In this document: positions 1-59,389 of the stretch, one piece after another
How positions within the stretch are numbered: position 1 is the first letter of the stretch
How the letters are laid out: the number at the start of each line of letters is the position of its first letter
Origin: Chryseobacterium taichungense
GTDB lineage: Bacteria; Bacteroidota; Bacteroidia; Flavobacteriales; Weeksellaceae
Assembly: GCF_900109935.1 (NCBI RefSeq)
Contig: NZ_FOBV01000001.1
Coordinates: 248,001-312,000 of the forward strand
Direction: 5' to 3'
Length of the DNA stretch: 64,000 bases
The notes under the pieces: generated by a model
The model's input: the letters and a program-made list of their open reading frames with translations, nothing else
Databases searched by the model: none
Told to the model about the DNA's origin: nothing
Position numbers and translations under genes: made by a program

Positions 1-516
1 TCGGTGCTGAATTTTGGTGAAAAATTGGGAATGGTATTTCTTCAGCTTCATGATAACTTTAAACCTAAAGACTATGACAGACTGGAAAAATTCGTCAAGG
101 ACTGGCCGAAAGAAGTACCATTAGCTATTGAGTTAAGAAATACCGAATGGTTTACCGATGAAAATATTTTCAATACCACCTGCGAGCTTTTTGAAGCCAA
201 TAATATTACAAATATCATCGTAGATACGGCAGGCAGAAGAGATATGCTTCATATGCGTCTTACAACACCTACAGCGTTTATCCGTTATGTAGGAGCCAAT
301 GCAGAAAGTGATTATGACAGGTTGGATGACTGGATGAAACATCTTACAAAATGGAAAAAAGAAGGACTTCAAAATGTTTACTTTTTTGTACACCAAAATA
401 TTGAAAAAGCTTCACCTTTATTGTCTGCATATTTTATAAAAAAAATGAATGAAGAGTGGAAAACGGACCTTCACGTCCCAAAAATGGCGACGGAAAGCAC
501 CGGTACATTATTTTAG
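1..516 (+). CDS. DUF72 (YecE-like) protein, 3' part
   Basis: The reading frame is open at the left edge, so only the C-terminal 171 residues or so of the protein are present. The segments LGMVFLQLHDNF, PLAIELRNTEWF, TNIIVDTAGRRD, AFIRYVGAN and VYFFVHQN follow the order seen in DUF72/YecE proteins, a TIM-barrel family of uncharted biochemical role. The GTG at position 4 is probably an internal Val codon, since a full-length member has about 100 more residues upstream. The end is intact. There is no close downstream partner, and 185 bp of AT-rich DNA follow. Family assignment is confident; the function is unknown. Confidence 0.85.
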   Translation, partial: SVLNFGEKLGMVFLQLHDNFKPKDYDRLEKFVKDWPKEVPLAIELRNTEWFTDENIFNTTCELFEANNITNIIVDTAGRRDMLHMRLTTPTAFIRYVGANAESDYDRLDDWMKHLTKWKKEGLQNVYFFVHQNIEKASPLLSAYFIKKMNEEWKTDLHVPKMATESTGTLF

Positions 517-1618: not shown

Positions 1619-2263
1619 TCAGCTGACGTTCCATTCTTTATAAAACTGGTCGAGAAACTGCAGCATAAAATCATGTCTTTTAGTAGCAATTTCTTTTCCT
1701 TTCCGTGTATTCATAAGGTCTTTCAGCAGAAGAAGCTTTTCATAAAAATGATTAACGGTAGTTCCATCAGACTTTTTATATTCCTCTTTCGACATATTCA
1801 GTTTGGGCTTAATTTCAGGATCATACATCAGATTATTTTTAAAACCTCCGAAATTGAATGTTCTGGCAATTCCGATTGCGCCAATTGCATCAATCCTGTC
1901 GGCATCCTGAACAATTTTGAGCTCAATAGGAAGATGTTCGGGAGCTTCTGCCCTGTTTTTAAACGAAATATTTTTAATAATAAATAAAACTTTCTCAATA
2001 ATACCTTCCGGAGCATCCTGGTTTTCCAGAAACTCACGCGAAACTTTAAGAGCAACCGTTTCATCACCATTGTGAAATTTCGGGTCGGCTATATCATGAA
2101 GGAGCGCTCCCAATTCGACAACTTCAATATTGCATTCTTCCGTTTCAGCAATATTTTTAGACAGCTTCCAAACTCTTTCAATATGATACCAGTCGTGACC
2201 GGCTTCGGCGCCTTTCAGCTTTTCTTTGACAAATTCTACAGTGTTTTCAATCAGATTCTTCAT
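1619..2263 (-). CDS. HD-domain phosphohydrolase
   Basis: A 214-residue cytosolic metal-dependent phosphohydrolase of the HD superfamily. The metal ligands are visible in order: H23 and H27 (GHDWYHIERV), the H56-D57 doublet (ALLHDIAD) and D120/D122 (VQDADRIDAIGAIG). The length and the DADRIDAIGAIGIAR motif fit the YedJ-like subgroup, whose physiological substrate is not settled. The ATG overlaps the stop of the upstream alpha/beta hydrolase gene by 4 nt, so the two are probably translationally coupled. The fold is confident; the substrate is not predictable. Confidence 0.88.
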   Translation of the reverse strand: MKNLIENTVEFVKEKLKGAEAGHDWYHIERVWKLSKNIAETEECNIEVVELGALLHDIADPKFHNGDETVALKVSREFLENQDAPEGIIEKVLFIIKNISFKNRAEAPEHLPIELKIVQDADRIDAIGAIGIARTFNFGGFKNNLMYDPEIKPKLNMSKEEYKKSDGTTVNHFYEKLLLLKDLMNTRKGKEIATKRHDFMLQFLDQFYKEWNVS

Positions 2264-3102
2264 TTATTCAATTCATTTAAAATAATATTCCAGAGCTTTC
2301 TATTGTAGCTTCTAAAAAAGTTAACATGCCCGATCTCTCCTTTTTCGGATTCGGAAGTTTTGATCAGTCTGTAAGTAGGCCTTAGATTAGGATAAGTATC
2401 ATTGAGAAGGCTCTTCACTCCTTTCTCGGTAAGCCATACATCATCTTCAGCCCTGATCACGAATGTTTTCTGTGTTAAAATTTTAGAATAATCATCGGTT
2501 TTTTCTAATAAACCGTTGGTTGATTTTCTGTTTAAAATTAAGGTTCTCCAGTCATATGCGCAATTTTTCGGAAGACTTTCTCCCAATCCAAACCATTGCG
2601 CCGGGAAATAGCCTAATAATGTTGTCATTACCGGTTGCGCGATCCCAAAGCCAAGATACGCTTCTATTTTTGTTCTGAATTTTAAATTTCCTACAAATGC
2701 ATTCTGAGTTCCTACGAAGACAAATTCGTCAAAAATACCTGAGTCTTTATTCATTCCTAAAATTAAAGCGCCAACAGAATGGCCAAGACAATATTTCTGA
2801 TAATCATTAAAATTAATTTTAATATAGTCCGTTAATGCTTTATAATCTTTCGATCCCCAGATTCTCATAGAAGCTTTGAAACCTTTCATATTTTTCGGCT
2901 TTGAAAGTCCGATTCCACGATAATCGTAAGTAAGAACAGTAAATCCCTTTTCGGAAAAATATTTCGCAAAAGAAAAGTAAACATGCTGTTTAACTCCTGT
3001 TGCAGAATTGATGAGCAAAAGTTTATGATTGCTTTTTTCAGGCAAAAAAAGATGAGCCGCGATCGAGAAAGAATCTTCTGTAGTAAGAACTAACTTTTCC
3101 AT
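2260..3102 (-). CDS. alpha/beta hydrolase
   Basis: A 280-residue alpha/beta hydrolase with no signal peptide, so probably cytosolic. It shows the nucleophile elbow GHSVGA (S109), an oxyanion-strand region LLLINSATGVKQHVY (about 28-42), the typical TYDYRGIGLS strand-turn (58-67), an acidic residue in RAEDDVWL (about 216) and a His in GEIGHVNFF (about 258). This layout fits the COG4757-type predicted hydrolases; the substrate is unknown. It is the first gene of a two-gene operon with the HD phosphohydrolase, overlapping it by 4 nt. Confidence 0.85.
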   Translation of the reverse strand: MEKLVLTTEDSFSIAAHLFLPEKSNHKLLLINSATGVKQHVYFSFAKYFSEKGFTVLTYDYRGIGLSKPKNMKGFKASMRIWGSKDYKALTDYIKINFNDYQKYCLGHSVGALILGMNKDSGIFDEFVFVGTQNAFVGNLKFRTKIEAYLGFGIAQPVMTTLLGYFPAQWFGLGESLPKNCAYDWRTLILNRKSTNGLLEKTDDYSKILTQKTFVIRAEDDVWLTEKGVKSLLNDTYPNLRPTYRLIKTSESEKGEIGHVNFFRSYNRKLWNIILNELNK

Positions 3103-4823: not shown

Positions 4824-7454
4824 TTATAAACTTTTTAATTTCTCTTCTAAAATCGCAATCTTATCAAGTGCATCTTTTTGTTTTTTGCGCTCAACTTCTA
4901 CGATTTCAGGTTTTGCATTGGCAACAAACTTTTCGTTGGAAAGCTTTTTGTCTACAGAGATTAAAAATCCTTTTAAGTATTTTAATTCTTCCTCAGTCTT
5001 CTTCTTTTCTTCTTCTAAATCAAGGTTTTCACTTAAAGGAATTGAAATTTCTGTCGCTCCTACCAAAAATGTGAAACTTGGCTTGTCGGTTTTTGTTCCG
5101 AAATGAATTTCTGAAACATTGGCCAGCTTTCTGATGACAGCTTCATTCGCAAAAGCTGTCGCATTGGTATAAATTTCAGCGACTTCTCTTGGCGAAATTC
5201 CTTTTGTCTGACGGTAATTTCTAACTCCGGAAATCAATTCTGCCGCAGTTTCAAAGTTTTTAATAACTTCTTCATTAAAAGCTTCTGCTTTTTTCTGCTG
5301 AGCAATAACCAGTGCTTCTTCAGTATTCCTTTCAGAAATTGTCTGCCATAATTCCTCTGTTAAGAAAGGCATAAACGGATGAAGCAATTTCATTAATTCT
5401 TCAAAGAAATAAATGGTTTTATGATACACTTCTTTAGAAATTCCTTCGCCATAATTTGGTTTGATAGCCTCTAAATACCAACCACAGAAATCATCCCAGA
5501 TTAATTTATAAATCAAATGCAAGGCATCAGAAATTCTGAACTTTTCAAACTGATCGCTGATTTCAGCAATGGTTTTATTTAATTTATTTTTAAACCATTC
5601 GATTGTCTGATTTTCAGTAACATTGGCAGATTTATCTTCATGATTCCACATATTGATCAGTCTGAAAGCATTCCAGATCTTCGTCATGAAATTTCTTCCC
5701 TGCAACATTAAATCTTCATCAAAAAGAAGGTCATTTCCTGCCGCGGAACTTAATAAAATTCCGACACGAACGCCATCTGCTCCATATTTATCCATCAATT
5801 CAAGCGGATCCGGAGAATTTCCTAAAGATTTTGACATCTTTCTTCTCTGCTTATCTCTTACAATTCCTGTAAAATAAACATTTTTGAACGGAACTTCTTT
5901 TCTGTATTCCAACCCTGCCATGATCATTCTTGCTACCCAGAAGAAAATAATATCCGGACCCGTCACCAAATCTGAAGTTGGGTAATAATAGTTGATATCT
6001 TTATTTTCAGGATCAAGCAATCCGTCGAAAACTGACATTGGCCACAACCATGATGAGAACCAAGTATCAAGAGCGTCTTCGTCTTGTTTTAGGTTGTTGG
6101 TTGTAAGTTGGTCGTTGTTGGTTTTTTGTTTTGCAAGTTCTAATGCTTCTTCGATGTTTTCTGCAACGACAAAGTCATTTTCTCCATCACCATAATAATA
6201 GGCAGGAATTTGCTGCCCCCACCAAAGCTGTCGGGAGATGTTCCAGTCGCAGATGTTTTCCATCCAGTGCTTGTAGGTATTTTTGAATTTTTCAGGATAA
6301 AATTTAACCTCATCATCCATTACAACATCCAGGGCAGGCTTTGCAATTTCAGACATTTTTAAGAACCATTGTACAGAAACTTTAGGTTCGATTACCGCAC
6401 CCGTTCTTTCAGATGTTCCTACTTTATTTACATAATCTTCTGCCTTTAACAAAAGATCTTTTTCTTCTAATTCTTTTGCGATCTGCTTTCTAACTTCGAA
6501 TCTGTTTTTTCCGGCGTAATGTAACCCGTACTCATTAAGATTTCCGTCATCATCCAGAGCATCAATCATCTGAAGATTGTGCTTTTGCCCGATTTCATAG
6601 TCATTAACATCGTGAGCCGGTGTAATTTTCAATGCACCTGTTCCGAATTCAATATCCACATATTCATCTTCAATAATCGGAATTACCCTGTTTACAATCG
6701 GTACGATTACTTTTTTACCCTTTAAATGAGCATATCTTTCATCATTAGGATTGATACAAACGGCAGTATCTCCGAAAATAGTTTCAGGACGCGTTGTCGC
6801 AACCGACAAATATTCGTCGGTATCTGAGCCTGTCGAAGATTCGATGGCATATTTTAGGAAATATAATTTTCCGTTTTGCTCTTTGAAGATTACTTCTTCG
6901 TCGGAAATATTGGTTTTTGCTTCCGGATCCCAGTTTACCATTCTGTAACCACGATAGATCAATCCTTTATTATAAAGATCAACAAAAGATTTGATAACCT
7001 GCTGAGAAAGTTTTGGTTCCATTGTAAACCGCGTTCTGTCCCAATCGCAAGAGCAACCCAGCTTTTTAAGCTGCTCCAGAATTGTTCCTCCGTATTTGTC
7101 GGTCCAGTCCCAGGCATGTTTTAAGAATTCTTCGCGGGTAATATCAGATTTATTGACTCCTTCAGACTTCAGTTTGGCAACAACCTTCGCTTCCGTAGCA
7201 ATGGAGGCGTGATCTGTTCCCGGAATCCAGCAGGCGTTGAATCCCTGCATTCTTGCACGTCGGACCAGAACATCCTGAATGGTATTATTCAGCATATGCC
7301 CCATGTGTAAAATCCCCGTAACGTTTGGTGGAGGGATGACAACAGTGTAAGGCGGCTTTTCATTCGGCTCTGAATGGAAATAGTTATTCTCCAACCAGTA
7401 ATTGTACCACTTTTGTTCTGTTTCCTGTGGATTGTACTTTTCTGAAATCTGCAT
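4824..7454 (-). CDS. valS: valine--tRNA ligase
   Basis: An 876-residue class I aminoacyl-tRNA synthetase that attaches valine to tRNA-Val in the cytosol. It shows the HIGH box HMGH (residues 50-53, in NVTGILHMGHML), the editing domain with ATTRPETIFGDTA (about 218-230), the WWGQQIPAYY block, the KMSKS box at 539-543, and the C-terminal tRNA-binding coiled coil (about 810-876). Two stretches look like captured dispersed repeats: residues about 204-212, next to the editing domain, and about 441-457 (KTNNDQLTTNNLK), just before DALDTWFSSWLWP. The reading frame is intact, so the enzyme should work. A -7 box lies at 7483-7490. Confidence 0.98.
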   Translation of the reverse strand: MQISEKYNPQETEQKWYNYWLENNYFHSEPNEKPPYTVVIPPPNVTGILHMGHMLNNTIQDVLVRRARMQGFNACWIPGTDHASIATEAKVVAKLKSEGVNKSDITREEFLKHAWDWTDKYGGTILEQLKKLGCSCDWDRTRFTMEPKLSQQVIKSFVDLYNKGLIYRGYRMVNWDPEAKTNISDEEVIFKEQNGKLYFLKYAIESSTGSDTDEYLSVATTRPETIFGDTAVCINPNDERYAHLKGKKVIVPIVNRVIPIIEDEYVDIEFGTGALKITPAHDVNDYEIGQKHNLQMIDALDDDGNLNEYGLHYAGKNRFEVRKQIAKELEEKDLLLKAEDYVNKVGTSERTGAVIEPKVSVQWFLKMSEIAKPALDVVMDDEVKFYPEKFKNTYKHWMENICDWNISRQLWWGQQIPAYYYGDGENDFVVAENIEEALELAKQKTNNDQLTTNNLKQDEDALDTWFSSWLWPMSVFDGLLDPENKDINYYYPTSDLVTGPDIIFFWVARMIMAGLEYRKEVPFKNVYFTGIVRDKQRRKMSKSLGNSPDPLELMDKYGADGVRVGILLSSAAGNDLLFDEDLMLQGRNFMTKIWNAFRLINMWNHEDKSANVTENQTIEWFKNKLNKTIAEISDQFEKFRISDALHLIYKLIWDDFCGWYLEAIKPNYGEGISKEVYHKTIYFFEELMKLLHPFMPFLTEELWQTISERNTEEALVIAQQKKAEAFNEEVIKNFETAAELISGVRNYRQTKGISPREVAEIYTNATAFANEAVIRKLANVSEIHFGTKTDKPSFTFLVGATEISIPLSENLDLEEEKKKTEEELKYLKGFLISVDKKLSNEKFVANAKPEIVEVERKKQKDALDKIAILEEKLKSL
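6081..6133 (-). repeat. repeat-like ACCAACAAC tract inside valS
   Basis: On the coding strand AACCAACAACGACCAAC is followed by a second ACCAACAAC, giving the Asn/Thr/Gln-rich peptide at about residues 441-457. The tract resembles the AACAACCAAC intergenic repeats of flavobacteria but appears roughly length-neutral for ValS. Confidence 0.4.
6824..6838. repeat. CTGAGCCTGTCGAAG repeat half-site inside valS
   Basis: A 15-base sequence related to the palindrome at 57408-57432 (shared core GAGC-NN-GTCGAAG). It encodes part of SSTGSDT, an extra-looking loop before the editing-domain motif. Confidence 0.5.
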
Positions 7455-9575: not shown

Positions 9576-10067
9576 TTGGCTTCAAAGGAAAAAGAATTTG
9601 CGCAGCTTATTAAAGATAATCAGGGTCTGATTATTAAGGTTTCGCGTCTTTATACCAATTCTTTGGAGGATGAGGAAGATCTTTTCCAGGAAATTGTTTT
9701 ACAATTATGGAGGAGCTACGACTCATTTAAAGGAAATTCCAAAATCTCTACGTGGATGTACCGTGTTGCCCTCAATACAGCCATTACTCTTTTCAGAAAA
9801 AAAAGCAAAAGCCTGCCTACCAACGAGCTGGACATCAATCATGCAGATTTTATTGAAGATGATGACGAAAAACAACAGCAGGTATCACTTTTGTATACTG
9901 TAATAAAAACTCTTCCTAACGTAGAAAGAGCGATCGTAATGATGTATCTGGATGATTTGCCTTACAAGGATATTGCAGAAAACCTCGGGATCACCGAAGT
10001 TAATGCTCGTGTGAAAATGAACAGATTAAAGAAAACCCTTAAAGAAAAGATGGAAAAATATGCCTGA
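9576..10067 (+). CDS. ECF-type RNA polymerase sigma factor
   Basis: A 163-residue extracytoplasmic-function sigma factor. Region 2 spans about residues 10-75 (DEEDLFQEIVLQLWRSYDSFKGNSKISTWMYRVALNTA). Region 4 spans about 105-160 (LPNVERAIVMMYLDDLPYKDIAENLGITEVNARVKMNRLKK), with the expected helix-turn-helix. The start is TTG at 9576; no in-frame ATG precedes the conserved part, and a full N-terminus is present with this choice. It overlaps the next gene by 8 nt, so the pair is probably one regulatory unit. The inducing signal is unknown. Confidence 0.9.
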   Translation: MASKEKEFAQLIKDNQGLIIKVSRLYTNSLEDEEDLFQEIVLQLWRSYDSFKGNSKISTWMYRVALNTAITLFRKKSKSLPTNELDINHADFIEDDDEKQQQVSLLYTVIKTLPNVERAIVMMYLDDLPYKDIAENLGITEVNARVKMNRLKKTLKEKMEKYA

Positions 10068-22061: not shown

Positions 22062-22697
22062 TTAATTATTTAACAACAATTTCCTTTTCCTGTAAGCCAT
22101 TATATTACTTGTAAAGAAAGTTATAAGTATCACAACACCAAGAAACAGAGAAAACCAACGGGTGAATACATTTGCATTGGCAGGCCCCAACAGCTGAAGA
22201 CTGATGAAACAAATTGCATAAATGCTTCCTGAAATGATCCAGAGACGATCCGGATCGGAATACTGTTCTACTAAATATGATTTATTGTAGCTGAGTAATG
22301 GCAAAATCTTATGCTTATCCCAAATCAGTAGTACAAGAATAGCGATCATCATCAAAGAAGTAATAATCCATGTACCCTGAAAAGACAAACTAAGTGTAAT
22401 AATCCAAATATTACTCAAAATTGCCAGAAACACAAGCGCTCCTAAAGTTGCGAAACGCTGGGTCATCAACAATATCCCTGCGATCACTTGTGTCAGCCCG
22501 AGAAAATTCCAGTAAAATCCCGATTGATATAAAGCTTCAAAAAAATAACCGATAGGCTCTGAAGTGGAAACCCTTGTAAATCTCTCTCCCATGACCTTCA
22601 CAAGTCCGGAAGGAAAAAAGGCAAAGCCCAAAAGATAACGTAAATGAATAATAATCCATTGATTGAATGTGTTTGTTCTTAGTTTTTCGAATCTCAT
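22062..22697 (-). CDS. DoxX-like membrane protein
   Basis: A 211-residue integral membrane protein with about six helices. The N-terminal part (LRYLLGFAFFPSGLVKVMGERF, 20-41) and the following LGLTQVIAGILLMTQRFATLGALVFLAILSNIW carry the DoxX-family pattern of a conserved Gly/Lys loop after helix 1 and a GxxxLxxxRFAxLGA turn. DoxX-family proteins have been tied to redox or quinone functions in some organisms, but no cofactor ligand is seen here. It is monocistronic. Confidence 0.7.
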   Translation of the reverse strand: MRFEKLRTNTFNQWIIIHLRYLLGFAFFPSGLVKVMGERFTRVSTSEPIGYFFEALYQSGFYWNFLGLTQVIAGILLMTQRFATLGALVFLAILSNIWIITLSLSFQGTWIITSLMMIAILVLLIWDKHKILPLLSYNKSYLVEQYSDPDRLWIISGSIYAICFISLQLLGPANANVFTRWFSLFLGVVILITFFTSNIMAYRKRKLLLNN

Positions 22698-22790: not shown

Positions 22791-23240
22791 TTAAATGACT
22801 TCTATAATCTTCTGATGAATCTTATTTAAGGTAAATTCATCACCAGGCTTCATGCCCATCATCTTTTTTGCCATAGGGCTTTCAGCGGAAATTGCATAAA
22901 ATCTGTCGCCTTCAAAAAAGAATTCTCCTAAAGAAACGGAAATATAAAACCTTGCTTTATTGGTAATAACCAAAGAACCTAGCTGAACCCTTTCCGTAGA
23001 ATTGTTCAGGACTTTGGCCATATTTCTCTTAAGATCATTTAAAGCTCCTAACTAACGTTGCATCTGGTAAATTTCTTCCTGCATTTCCTCACGCATGCTG
23101 TCATATTTCGGAGTTTTTTTAATATCGCGGCTTGCTTCTAAAGTAAATTCGATAAAGTTTTTTAGCCTTTCTATTTTTTCGGCAATCACGGTTTTTACAT
23201 AATCTCTTATGTTATTTTTCTCAAATACTGTCTTCTCCAT
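22791..23240 (-). pseudogene. GreA-like transcript cleavage factor, interrupted by an amber codon
   Basis: Two pieces in the same frame together give a 149-codon gene. Codons 1-62 (from ATG at 23240) form an N-terminal helical hairpin (IAEKIERLKNFIEFTLEASRDI, then REEMQEEIYQMQR). Codon 63 is TAG (23052-23054). Codons 64 onward read LGALNDLKRNMAKVLNN and then the FKBP-like C-terminal domain of GreA/GreB (ERVQLGSLVITNKARFY ... ISAESPMAKKMMGMKPGDEF). No frameshift is present, and CAG (Gln) to TAG is a single C-to-T change. It may be a real nonsense mutation, a suppressed codon or a sequence error; an internal ATG at 23021 could yield the C-terminal domain alone. Confidence 0.85.
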
Positions 23241-23454
23241 ACATCTAATCTTTATATAAAGATAATATTTTTTACATAATTCATACTTTTGAATATGTTA
23301 AAAACTTGTAATAAGTACCTATGCGATTATTGATTAGCGAATGCTTTTATAATATGATCAGATTTTATAACAAAGAAAAAGATAAAATAACCAAGCATAT
23401 TCGAAAGGACTGAAAAATATTTCAACGATTATTTTGATATGCTATATGCCTAAA

Positions 23455-23483
23455 AAAGCCCTGCAGAAGTTTTGCAGGGCTTT
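23455..23483 (-). terminator. intrinsic terminator
   Basis: An 11-bp stem AAAGCCCTGCA / TGCAGGGCTTT with a 7-nt loop. It lies just beyond the stop codon of the SRPBCC gene on the minus strand. Confidence 0.8.
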
Positions 23484-23487
23484 AGTT

Positions 23488-24021
23488 TTATTTTTCAACT
23501 AAGTTTTTAAGATTAGTAAGGCCTTCTTCATAGGATTTTCCCATCTGATAATCCATCATTGGTCTCATTATTTTCATCATGGCGTCTTGTTCCATGTCCA
23601 TCGTCCAGGTTACTTTTGTAGCGTTTCCTTCAGGAGAAAGTTTAATTTCGGAAGTGGCCTGCCCGTCAAAAGGTCTTTTAAAAATCATTTCTGTTTTCTG
23701 TTTTTGGTTTGTTGCCAGATCTTTGATTTCCTGACAACCTGCTCCTGCGTCATCATTCTTACTGTCCCAACAGTATTTATCACCTATTTCACCGCTGTTT
23801 CCCGAATAGATAATTTTCATACTCGGATCCAGCTTCATCCATGGATTCCATTGATTAAAAGCTTTCATAGAGCTTATCTGTTGCCAGACTTTTTCTTTCG
23901 GAGCTTTAATAACCATAGATTTTTCATAGTGATAATTACCCCCAAAGGCAATCATGGCAATTACTGCGTATACTACAAGGAGAAGAATAATGACACCTAG
24001 AATTTTTAAAATTGTTTTCAT
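23488..24021 (-). CDS. SRPBCC family protein (membrane-anchored)
   Basis: A 177-residue protein with one N-terminal membrane helix (about 6-25, LGVIILLLVVYAVIAMIAF) and a START/polyketide-cyclase-type ligand-binding domain: the strand SMVIKAPKEKVWQQISSM (35-52), the loop NQWNPWMKLDP, and the closing helix DYQMGKSYEEGLTNLKNLVEK. Such domains bind hydrophobic ligands or act as chaperones; the ligand is not predictable. It is monocistronic, followed by a strong terminator and divergent from the M3 peptidase gene. Confidence 0.82.
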   Translation of the reverse strand: MKTILKILGVIILLLVVYAVIAMIAFGGNYHYEKSMVIKAPKEKVWQQISSMKAFNQWNPWMKLDPSMKIIYSGNSGEIGDKYCWDSKNDDAGAGCQEIKDLATNQKQKTEMIFKRPFDGQATSEIKLSPEGNATKVTWTMDMEQDAMMKIMRPMMDYQMGKSYEEGLTNLKNLVEK

Positions 24022-45835: not shown

Positions 45836-45895
45836 ATAATTTAATGCTGTTTTCTACCATATTTTTCTTAACTTTAGTAGACAAAATTAAAGGTT

Positions 45896-46333
45896 ATGGT
45901 AAATATTGTATTGCCCGTAGATTTTGGGGACAAAACAGAGCAGCTCATAGAAGGTGCAGTAAAATTTGCAAAGCAGATAAACGGCAGGATTTTTCTTATC
46001 CATGTAGCGCCGTCGGATATTGGTTTTGCGATCGGTGATATGGGTTTCCAGTATTTTCCGGAGGTTGAAGAGAACGAGATCAGAGAAGAACTGGTACAGC
46101 TTAATAAAATACAGCAAAGAATTCTTGCCCACGAGGTAGATTGTGAACACATCCTGAAACAGGGTATTGCGAAGGATATTATTCTAGAACATGCCCATGA
46201 CAAAAAAGCAGATTTTATTGTAATGGGGTCACACGGAAGAAGCGGAATATATGATGTTTTTGTAGGAAGCCTAACAAAAGGAATCACCAAAGACTCTAAT
46301 ATTCCTGTGCTGGTATTGCCTATTCATGAATAG
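45896..46333 (+). CDS. universal stress protein (UspA)
   Basis: A 145-residue UspA-fold protein. It begins VNIVLPVDFGDKTEQLIEGAVKFAKQING (2-30), with the ATP-binding text VMGSHGRSGIYDVFVGSLTKGITKDSNIPVLVLP at the C-terminus matching G-x2-G-x9-G(S/T), with SLT in the last position. It is therefore an ATP-binding member. It is monocistronic, with a partly matching -7 box (TAACTTTA) upstream and a strong terminator behind. Expected in general stress resistance. Confidence 0.93.
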   Translation: MVNIVLPVDFGDKTEQLIEGAVKFAKQINGRIFLIHVAPSDIGFAIGDMGFQYFPEVEENEIREELVQLNKIQQRILAHEVDCEHILKQGIAKDIILEHAHDKKADFIVMGSHGRSGIYDVFVGSLTKGITKDSNIPVLVLPIHE

Positions 46334-57454: not shown

Positions 57455-59389
57455 TTAATTTAATTGAGTACCCAAATATTCCCACTCTTGTAAAGCAACC
57501 TCTAATTCTTCTTTTGTTTTATTGTATTTTTCCAGCGTTTCTTCAGAAGGATTTTCTTTTGTAAAAGAAGCTTCAAATTCTTCAACCTTTGTTTCCAGTT
57601 CGGAGATTTTTTCTTCTACTTTTTTTATTTTGTTCTGAATATTTTTCTGTTCTTTACTTACGATGGTTGATGATTGCTGGTTTTCTGCTGCCGACACTTC
57701 CTGCTTCTTAGCCTTTGCCTCAACCTTATTTTCCTCTCCATGAAGTTTTGCTTTCTCTGCAGAAATTTCGCGAATGGTTTCTTTTTGTCTGTATTCCAGG
57801 TATTCGTTGATATCACCCAGGAACTCTTTCATACGCCCATCACGGAATTCATAAATTTTATCACAAAGTCCCTGAAGGAATTCCCTGTCGTGAGAAATCA
57901 CAATCAGTGTACCTTCAAACTTCTGAAGTGCCAGCTTGATAATTTCTTTCGATTGAATATCCAGGTGGTTGGTAGGTTCGTCCATGATCAGCGTGTTGAA
58001 AGGACGTAACAACAATTTACATAAAGCCAGACGGTTTCTCTCACCTCCTGAAAGAACTTTTGTTTTTTTCGTCACCGCTTCTCCCTGAAAAAGGAAAGAT
58101 CCTAATAAATCTCTCACTCTAGGTCTTGTTTCTTCGGTTGCGGCATCTTCCGCTTCTTCCAAAACTGTTTTATTTGGCGTTAAAACCTCTTCCTGATTCT
58201 GTGCAAAGTAACCGATATTCACATTATGCCCGAGGTTCCATGAACCGGAGTAATCTTTAATATCTCCTGCCAAGATTTTAGCCAGCGTTGTTTTTCCCTG
58301 TCCGTTTTGCCCTAAAAGCGCAATTCTGTCGCCTCTCTGAACAATAAAATCAACATCATCAAAAATCTGCTTCTGCCCATAGGCTTTTCCTAAATTTTCA
58401 GCTTCGAAAATTACTTTTCCCGGAACAACGGACTGTACGAAACGGATATTAAATTTAGAAACATCTTCATTATCCACCTCGATACGCTCGATTTTATCTA
58501 ATTTTTTAATAAGAGACTGTGCGAATGATGCTTTTGTAGCACTGGCACGGAACTTATTGATATTGTCTTCCATCTGCTTGATTTCCGCATCCTGATTCTT
58601 TTTAGCCTGAATCAGCTTTTCGCGGCGGTCTTCGCGCATAATGAGATATTTGGAATAATTGGCTTTATAATCGTCAACTTTTTTATTGTTGATATCAAAA
58701 GTACGGTTGCAGACAGCCGTCATAAACTGCTTGTCGTGACTGACTAATACAATCGCTCCCGGATAATCTTTAAGGAAGTTTTCCAGCCAGATAATCGATT
58801 CCATATCCAGGTGGTTGGTAGGCTCATCGAGAAGCATGATATCATTCTTTTGAAGAAGTAGCTTTGCAAGCTCGATCCTCATTCTCCATCCTCCGGAAAA
58901 TTCATCGGTAATCTTTTGAAAATCATCGGCTTTAAAACCTAAACCGAACAGTACTTTTTCCATGTCGCCTTCCAGGTTGTAGGCATCATGATTCATCAAA
59001 AGATCATTCAGCTCGGTCATTTTATTGATCAGATCCGTATAAGAATCACTTTCATAGTCGGTTCTTGTCGCCATCTGATGATTCACCTCTTCAAGCTCAT
59101 TTTTCCAGGCATTGATTTGCTCGAAAGCCTGCATTGTTTCGGCCCAAACGGTTCTTCCTTTTACAAAATCAAGATCCTGTTTCAGGAAACCGATGGTAAT
59201 ATTTCCTTCGGGTACAACATTTCCTTCATAGAAATTGATTTCCCCTGAAAGCATTTTTAATAAAGTGGATTTCCCCGCTCCATTTTTACCGACCAAACCA
59301 ATTTTATCATCCTTTTTAATCGTGAAATTCACGTTTTGAAACAGATAGTTTCCCGAATGATGTAATCCTAAACCTTGAACCGAAAGCAT
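57455..59389 (-). CDS. ABC-F family ATPase
   Basis: A 644-residue cytosolic ABC-F protein with two ABC domains and no membrane segment. ABC1 has GKNGAGKSTLLKML (about 36-49) and SGGWRMRIELAKLLL (about 166-180) with LLDEPTNHLD. ABC2 has GQNGQGKTTLAKIL (about 356-369), LSGGERNRLALCKLLL (about 444-459) and IMDEPTNHLD. A linker helix pair between them (about 240-290) and a C-terminal coiled coil (about 545-640) are typical. Role: ribosome-associated translation factor, Uup- or EttA-like. The -7 box is at 59430-59437. Confidence 0.95.
   Translation of the reverse strand: MLSVQGLGLHHSGNYLFQNVNFTIKKDDKIGLVGKNGAGKSTLLKMLSGEINFYEGNVVPEGNITIGFLKQDLDFVKGRTVWAETMQAFEQINAWKNELEEVNHQMATRTDYESDSYTDLINKMTELNDLLMNHDAYNLEGDMEKVLFGLGFKADDFQKITDEFSGGWRMRIELAKLLLQKNDIMLLDEPTNHLDMESIIWLENFLKDYPGAIVLVSHDKQFMTAVCNRTFDINNKKVDDYKANYSKYLIMREDRREKLIQAKKNQDAEIKQMEDNINKFRASATKASFAQSLIKKLDKIERIEVDNEDVSKFNIRFVQSVVPGKVIFEAENLGKAYGQKQIFDDVDFIVQRGDRIALLGQNGQGKTTLAKILAGDIKDYSGSWNLGHNVNIGYFAQNQEEVLTPNKTVLEEAEDAATEETRPRVRDLLGSFLFQGEAVTKKTKVLSGGERNRLALCKLLLRPFNTLIMDEPTNHLDIQSKEIIKLALQKFEGTLIVISHDREFLQGLCDKIYEFRDGRMKEFLGDINEYLEYRQKETIREISAEKAKLHGEENKVEAKAKKQEVSAAENQQSSTIVSKEQKNIQNKIKKVEEKISELETKVEEFEASFTKENPSEETLEKYNKTKEELEVALQEWEYLGTQLN

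Follow-up and report, generated by a model that had tools for sequence, protein, structure and literature searches.

Is a gene that is cut by a single in-frame amber codon lost, read through, split in two or simply misread by the sequencer? The question arises at a minus-strand frame of Chryseobacterium taichungense (23240-22791), which by translation encodes 149 residues, ends in TAA and carries one internal stop, a TAG at 23054-23052. The frame lies in the 64,000-nucleotide stretch that was analysed (the window; C23:248001-312000), which is part of a draft assembly of 31 contigs and 4,478,932 bases, here called G000. An earlier note, made from the sequence alone, had reported the single TAG at codon 63, and translation of the minus strand confirms it. 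The features discussed below are collected in Table 1.

Table 1. Features of the interrupted locus, its neighbourhood and the open reading frames (ORFs) of the window that differ in length from those of genome G009
Feature	Positions	Strand	Basis or remark
Gre-like gene, 149 codons plus stop, broken at codon 63	22791-23240	minus	Translation and orthologue comparison
In-frame TAG, codon 63; Gln in all 80 orthologues kept	23052-23054	minus	Translation and orthologues
Open first 62 codons: helix 1, tip loop and part of helix 2 of the predicted coiled coil	23055-23240	minus	Translation; low-confidence model of orthologue L097
76-codon frame that starts at the internal ATG (Met74) and includes the GreA/GreB-like C-terminal part	22791-23021	minus	Translation and Pfam
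Dyad-symmetric stretch, 7 bases before the ATG	23248-23264	minus	Conserved in orthologues
Hairpin after the polyketide-cyclase-like gene	23455-23483		Scanned as plus-strand terminator; a T run follows on the minus strand too
Upstream neighbour, polyketide-cyclase-like	23488-24021		
Downstream neighbour, DoxX-like gene	22062-22697		
Length-differing ORF	4-516		Window edge
Length-differing ORFs	2260-3102, 9576-10067		Upstream frame extension in G009
Length-differing ORF	57455-59389		End of the G009 stretch compared

The gene and its stop in Chryseobacterium

A contig search found 145 relatives, of which the best 80 were kept as orthologues for comparison. The frame aligns with these 80 over residues 1-149 at 88-98% identity, and none of them has an internal stop; thus, a chance open frame is ruled out. 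The gene is whole and colinear in all 80, and codon 63 consistently encodes Gln (71 CAG and 9 CAA). This comparison, which the earlier note had proposed as a check, supports its suggestion that the stop arose very recently by one C-to-T transition in a Gln codon. Even the closest of the 80 has 60 differences from the window gene in 450 bases. A genome search gave 29 orthologues, a set that overlaps with the first, and these likewise have Gln at codon 63 and no internal stops. Every genus name among the orthologues found is Chryseobacterium, and two Weeksellaceae MAGs bear none.

Within the genus, the gene is matched in 171 of 173 genomes, G000 included (E 1e-30 or better). Among the 150 matches listed, only that in G000 has a stop inside the gene. 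Of 21 further genomes that were searched separately, 17 are clean, two (G157 and G158) have two TGA codons each, one (G160) has three, and in G098 the match covers residues 1-115. Irregular copies are therefore found in 5 of the 171 carriers, and an internal TAG is found in G000 alone. The defects in the other four are small insertions or deletions, not nonsense changes: a one-base deletion at codon 126, adjoining a run of A, in both G157 and G158 (loci L205 and L206); a one-base deletion at codon 108 in G098; and a two-base insertion together with a one-base deletion in G160. The deletion common to G157 and G158 may reflect a shared loss, parallel slippage or error. If it is real, loss of the gene has occurred elsewhere in the genus. 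Indel errors are plausible in G160, which is 75% complete, and in G098, both of which are single-contig assemblies.

The two genomes in which the gene was not matched, G001 and G169, do not establish its absence, because the flanking matches run to contig ends. In G001 the upstream flank matches at 6425-6984 of a contig of 7305 bases (C126). In G169 the match on C105 starts at base 363, and that on C113 stops at 22928 of 23082. Contig breaks within a few hundred bases 5' or 3' of the gene are also seen at L014, L124, L129, L155 and G018:C149, as they are at G001:C126 and G169:C105, and in G018 short tandem repeats directly follow the gene. A single TAG recorded for a paralogue in G026 at first resembled a second nonsense case; it is that paralogue's own terminal stop.

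A hairpin separates the gene from its upstream neighbour, which suggests that the gene is served by a promoter region of its own. Immediately before the start codon lies a dyad, which in the window is a 16-base perfect inverted repeat. With at most three mismatches it recurs in 71 of the 80 upstream regions compared (the window and 79 orthologues), and in 69 its end lies 7 or 8 bases upstream of the start codon. In its 17-base form, with zero mismatches, it is found in its own genome at this site only. The dyad is a possible operator or part of a promoter.

Relationship to GreA

As judged from its sequence, the gene is a divergent Gre-like paralogue and not greA. The C-terminal GreA/GreB domain model (PF01272) scores 23.4 bits with the read-through frame and 25.0 bits with the second piece, below the cut-off of 26.9, and the intact orthologue L097 also scores 23.4 bits. 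A search of the genome with the N-terminal GreA domain (PF03449), taken to E 1, gave three matches, none of them in this gene. Thus, only in a loose sense is this, as the earlier note had put it, a complete protein of GreA/GreB type with the normal order of domains. Against the greA model TIGR01462, L097 scores 23 bits (cut-off 139) with an E value of 6.6e-5, and its residues 39-143 are colinear with model positions 37-141.

A profile built from 34 of the 80 orthologues aligns its residues 39-139 colinearly with residues 41-141 of a GreA/Gfh1 chimera (4wqt) at an E value of 1.4. Two bicaudal D coiled coils (E 0.75 and 0.83) rank above the chimera, so the search of PDB sequences would not by itself prove a Gre relationship. 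An AlphaFold2 model of L097, made with the same number of aligned orthologues (34 of 80), has helices at 9-39 and 44-77, with the tip between them, followed by four strands, at a mean pLDDT of 56.2; GreA and GreB have an antiparallel coiled coil and an FKBP-like beta domain. A Foldseek search of the PDB with this weak model found nothing at an E value of 0.001 or below. Sub-threshold Pfam matches to unrelated families (T4SS at 0.0025, and others) were put down to the coiled coil.

The tip of the predicted coil is altered. In E. coli GreA, the coil-tip residues D41 and E44 are described as contacting the catalytic Mg ion, and a GreA-dependent reporter was not induced by the D41A E44Y variant (PMC7527559). 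In the weak alignment with 4wqt, D39 falls on D41 and K42 on E44, and the two-acid tip of GreA and GreB is thus not present. All 80 orthologues kept from the 145 relatives have D or E at position 39 and KK at positions 41-42. The protein is therefore expected to bind the secondary channel of RNA polymerase and, with Lys in the place of Glu44, to have weak cleavage activity or none.

A canonical greA is intact elsewhere in the genome (G000:C30:30413-30868), with a 160-residue open frame and a PF03449 score of 105.3 bits. A second Gre-like paralogue, with 38% identity, is intact at C23:80438-80881. Thus, the stop does not imply loss of GreA. The earlier note had anticipated loss of a transcript-cleavage factor, with an effect on backtracking, unless a second greA existed; the search that it suggested found that gene, and the expected loss is not borne out.

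Constraint and the fate of the stop

Between the window gene and the 29 orthologues, the median dN/dS is 0.035 before the stop (14 of 29 pairs usable) and 0.029 after it (15 of 29), with pairs left out where dS was not computable. For all other pairs, the medians are 0.028 before (183 of 406 usable) and 0.032 after (238 of 406). The window protein has one private residue relative to the 80 orthologues, which is the stop itself, and the part after the stop differs from four near relatives at 2 to 4 non-synonymous codons. Suppose that the window branch carries half of the synonymous differences and that, for a fraction f of this branch, the sequence after the stop changed freely. The unconstrained fraction f is then at most 0.10-0.13 with the four near relatives; an identical calculation on the part before the stop yields 0.11-0.25. 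The sequence after the stop thus looks still to be under selection, without relaxation, which means that the stop is very young, is read through, or is a base error. Near-universal presence in the genus and strong constraint suggest that losing the gene carries a real cost, a point against the loss favoured below.

We consider an ordinary explanation to be the probable one: this one genome has very recently acquired a nonsense mutation in an accessory Gre-like gene. A single C-to-T change would have turned the conserved Gln codon into TAG very recently on the G000 branch. The intact product would comprise a predicted antiparallel coiled coil and a GreA/GreB-like C-terminal part, and we infer that it binds the secondary channel of RNA polymerase. 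The stop falls within the predicted second helix of the coil and, if the base is real and the product is lost, as we infer, would most likely leave only a useless fragment of 62 residues. Such a loss would be tolerated because the canonical GreA and the second Gre-like paralogue remain whole.

The main rival, which we regard as rather unlikely, holds that the species has an intact gene and that the TAG arose through faulty base calling or assembly, or by mutation in the sequenced culture alone. Its occurrence in only 1 of 171 genomes and the lack of decay on either side of it fit such an error, which would look identical in a draft of 31 contigs. However, the change is a substitution rather than a homopolymer indel, and it lies deep within a contig of 818 kb. 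The remainder of the window also argues against error. Of its 67 non-overlapping ORFs of at least 60 codons, 51 have an orthologue in G009 at 55% identity or more; two of these are the pieces of the Gre-like gene, and 7 of the other 49 end in TAG. None of the 49 is broken as judged by length ratio to G009, a measure that is blind to stops in the last 15%. Four differ in length by more than ~15%, none in a way that signals breakage (Table 1). The assembly is thus not error-ridden in the window. Other window ORFs that contain stops were taken, by their positions, for shadow ORFs or start-codon extensions; one of them, 45874-46290, is the shadow of a universal-stress-protein gene.

Equal constraint on the two sides of the stop would also be expected if a near-cognate tRNA read the TAG at a useful level and yielded a little full-length protein, and a general proposal that stops of this kind are read through has been made (PMC7918605). 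We nevertheless hold this to be improbable. The constraint is explained equally well if the stop has existed for less than about a tenth of the branch, and the suppressed stop considered in the earlier note finds no suppressor: among 57 tRNA matches (RF00005; 150 of 342 first-look candidates scored), the 56 to which ARAGORN assigned an anticodon include none with CTA, and the 57th is apparently degraded. RF1 is intact (C14:140900; 463.4 bits, cut-off 423.25). With RF1 intact and no CTA-anticodon tRNA found, the TAG should terminate translation.

One tRNA cluster, at G000:C19:134292-138223 (L095 and L094), was considered as a source of a suppressor and set aside, as its six tRNAs are those for His, Lys, Asp, Phe, Gln and Trp, none with a CTA anticodon. 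These six are second-copy genes and are followed by two degraded-looking tRNA-like stretches. Three of seven neighbouring proteins tested match PHROGs, including a phosphoesterase and a DNA polymerase exonuclease subunit. The cluster is perhaps the relic of a tRNA-carrying phage or element.

The gene might instead give two products: the coil fragment of 62 residues, and a C-terminal part of 76 residues whose translation would begin at the ATG at 23021. This ATG is in frame only 30 bases after the TAG, and the part that it would open contains the GreA/GreB-like stretch. However, all 80 orthologues (the best of the 145 relatives) have Met74 within their full-length protein, and no Shine-Dalgarno-like word of at least four bases precedes the ATG in the window; 52 of the 80 orthologues have such a word, by the chance of their codons. 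Shine-Dalgarno-like words are not decisive in Bacteroidota. There is thus no sign of a separate start, contrary to the split expression that had been proposed. Moreover, both domains of GreA seem to be required for specific binding to RNA polymerase in E. coli, as described in PMC7527559, and we give the two-product reading a very small chance. It is decidedly improbable that a genuine TAG is overcome by read-through or re-initiation, such that the strain tunes down a strongly constrained Gre-like factor with an altered catalytic tip that is found almost throughout the genus.

Comparison with known systems

Taken alone, the stop has little import, as a further singleton nonsense change (or base error) in the draft genome of a bacterium. 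Any use may lie in the gene itself, a strongly constrained Gre-like paralogue carried by 171 of 173 Chryseobacterium genomes, in which one tip acid is replaced by Lys. Its coexistence with an intact canonical greA was checked in the window genome only. A strain that is a natural knock-out would be a handle on the role of this gene.

In-frame stops, CAG/TAG pairs included, are described as widespread in bacterial genes, mostly short-lived and accompanied by dN/dS below 1 (PMC7918605). The stop reported here resembles those described in that survey in the CAG/TAG change at one codon, in a dN/dS below 1 and in its apparently short life. However, the survey, as described, focused on stops common to two or more species, whereas this one is found in a single genome. 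The dN/dS values of the survey are also described as fairly high (0.73 in its example), whereas that found here is ~0.03 and was measured between species.

The gene resembles greA and greB (PF03449 plus PF01272; TIGR01462) in its similar length, its weak colinear matches and, in the low-confidence model of L097, a predicted two-helix coil followed by strands. It differs from them in falling under the curated cut-offs tested, in leaving PF03449 unmatched, and in having Lys for Glu44, such that the place of Asp41 alone is acidic. For a comparison with the Rnk type, one NCBIfam model of a nucleoside diphosphate kinase regulator matches at 15.2 bits, versus a cut-off of 126. Gfh1 and Rnk have a Gre-like build with a changed tip. 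The protein predicted here would resemble such factors without cleavage activity in combining a Gre-like build with an altered tip.
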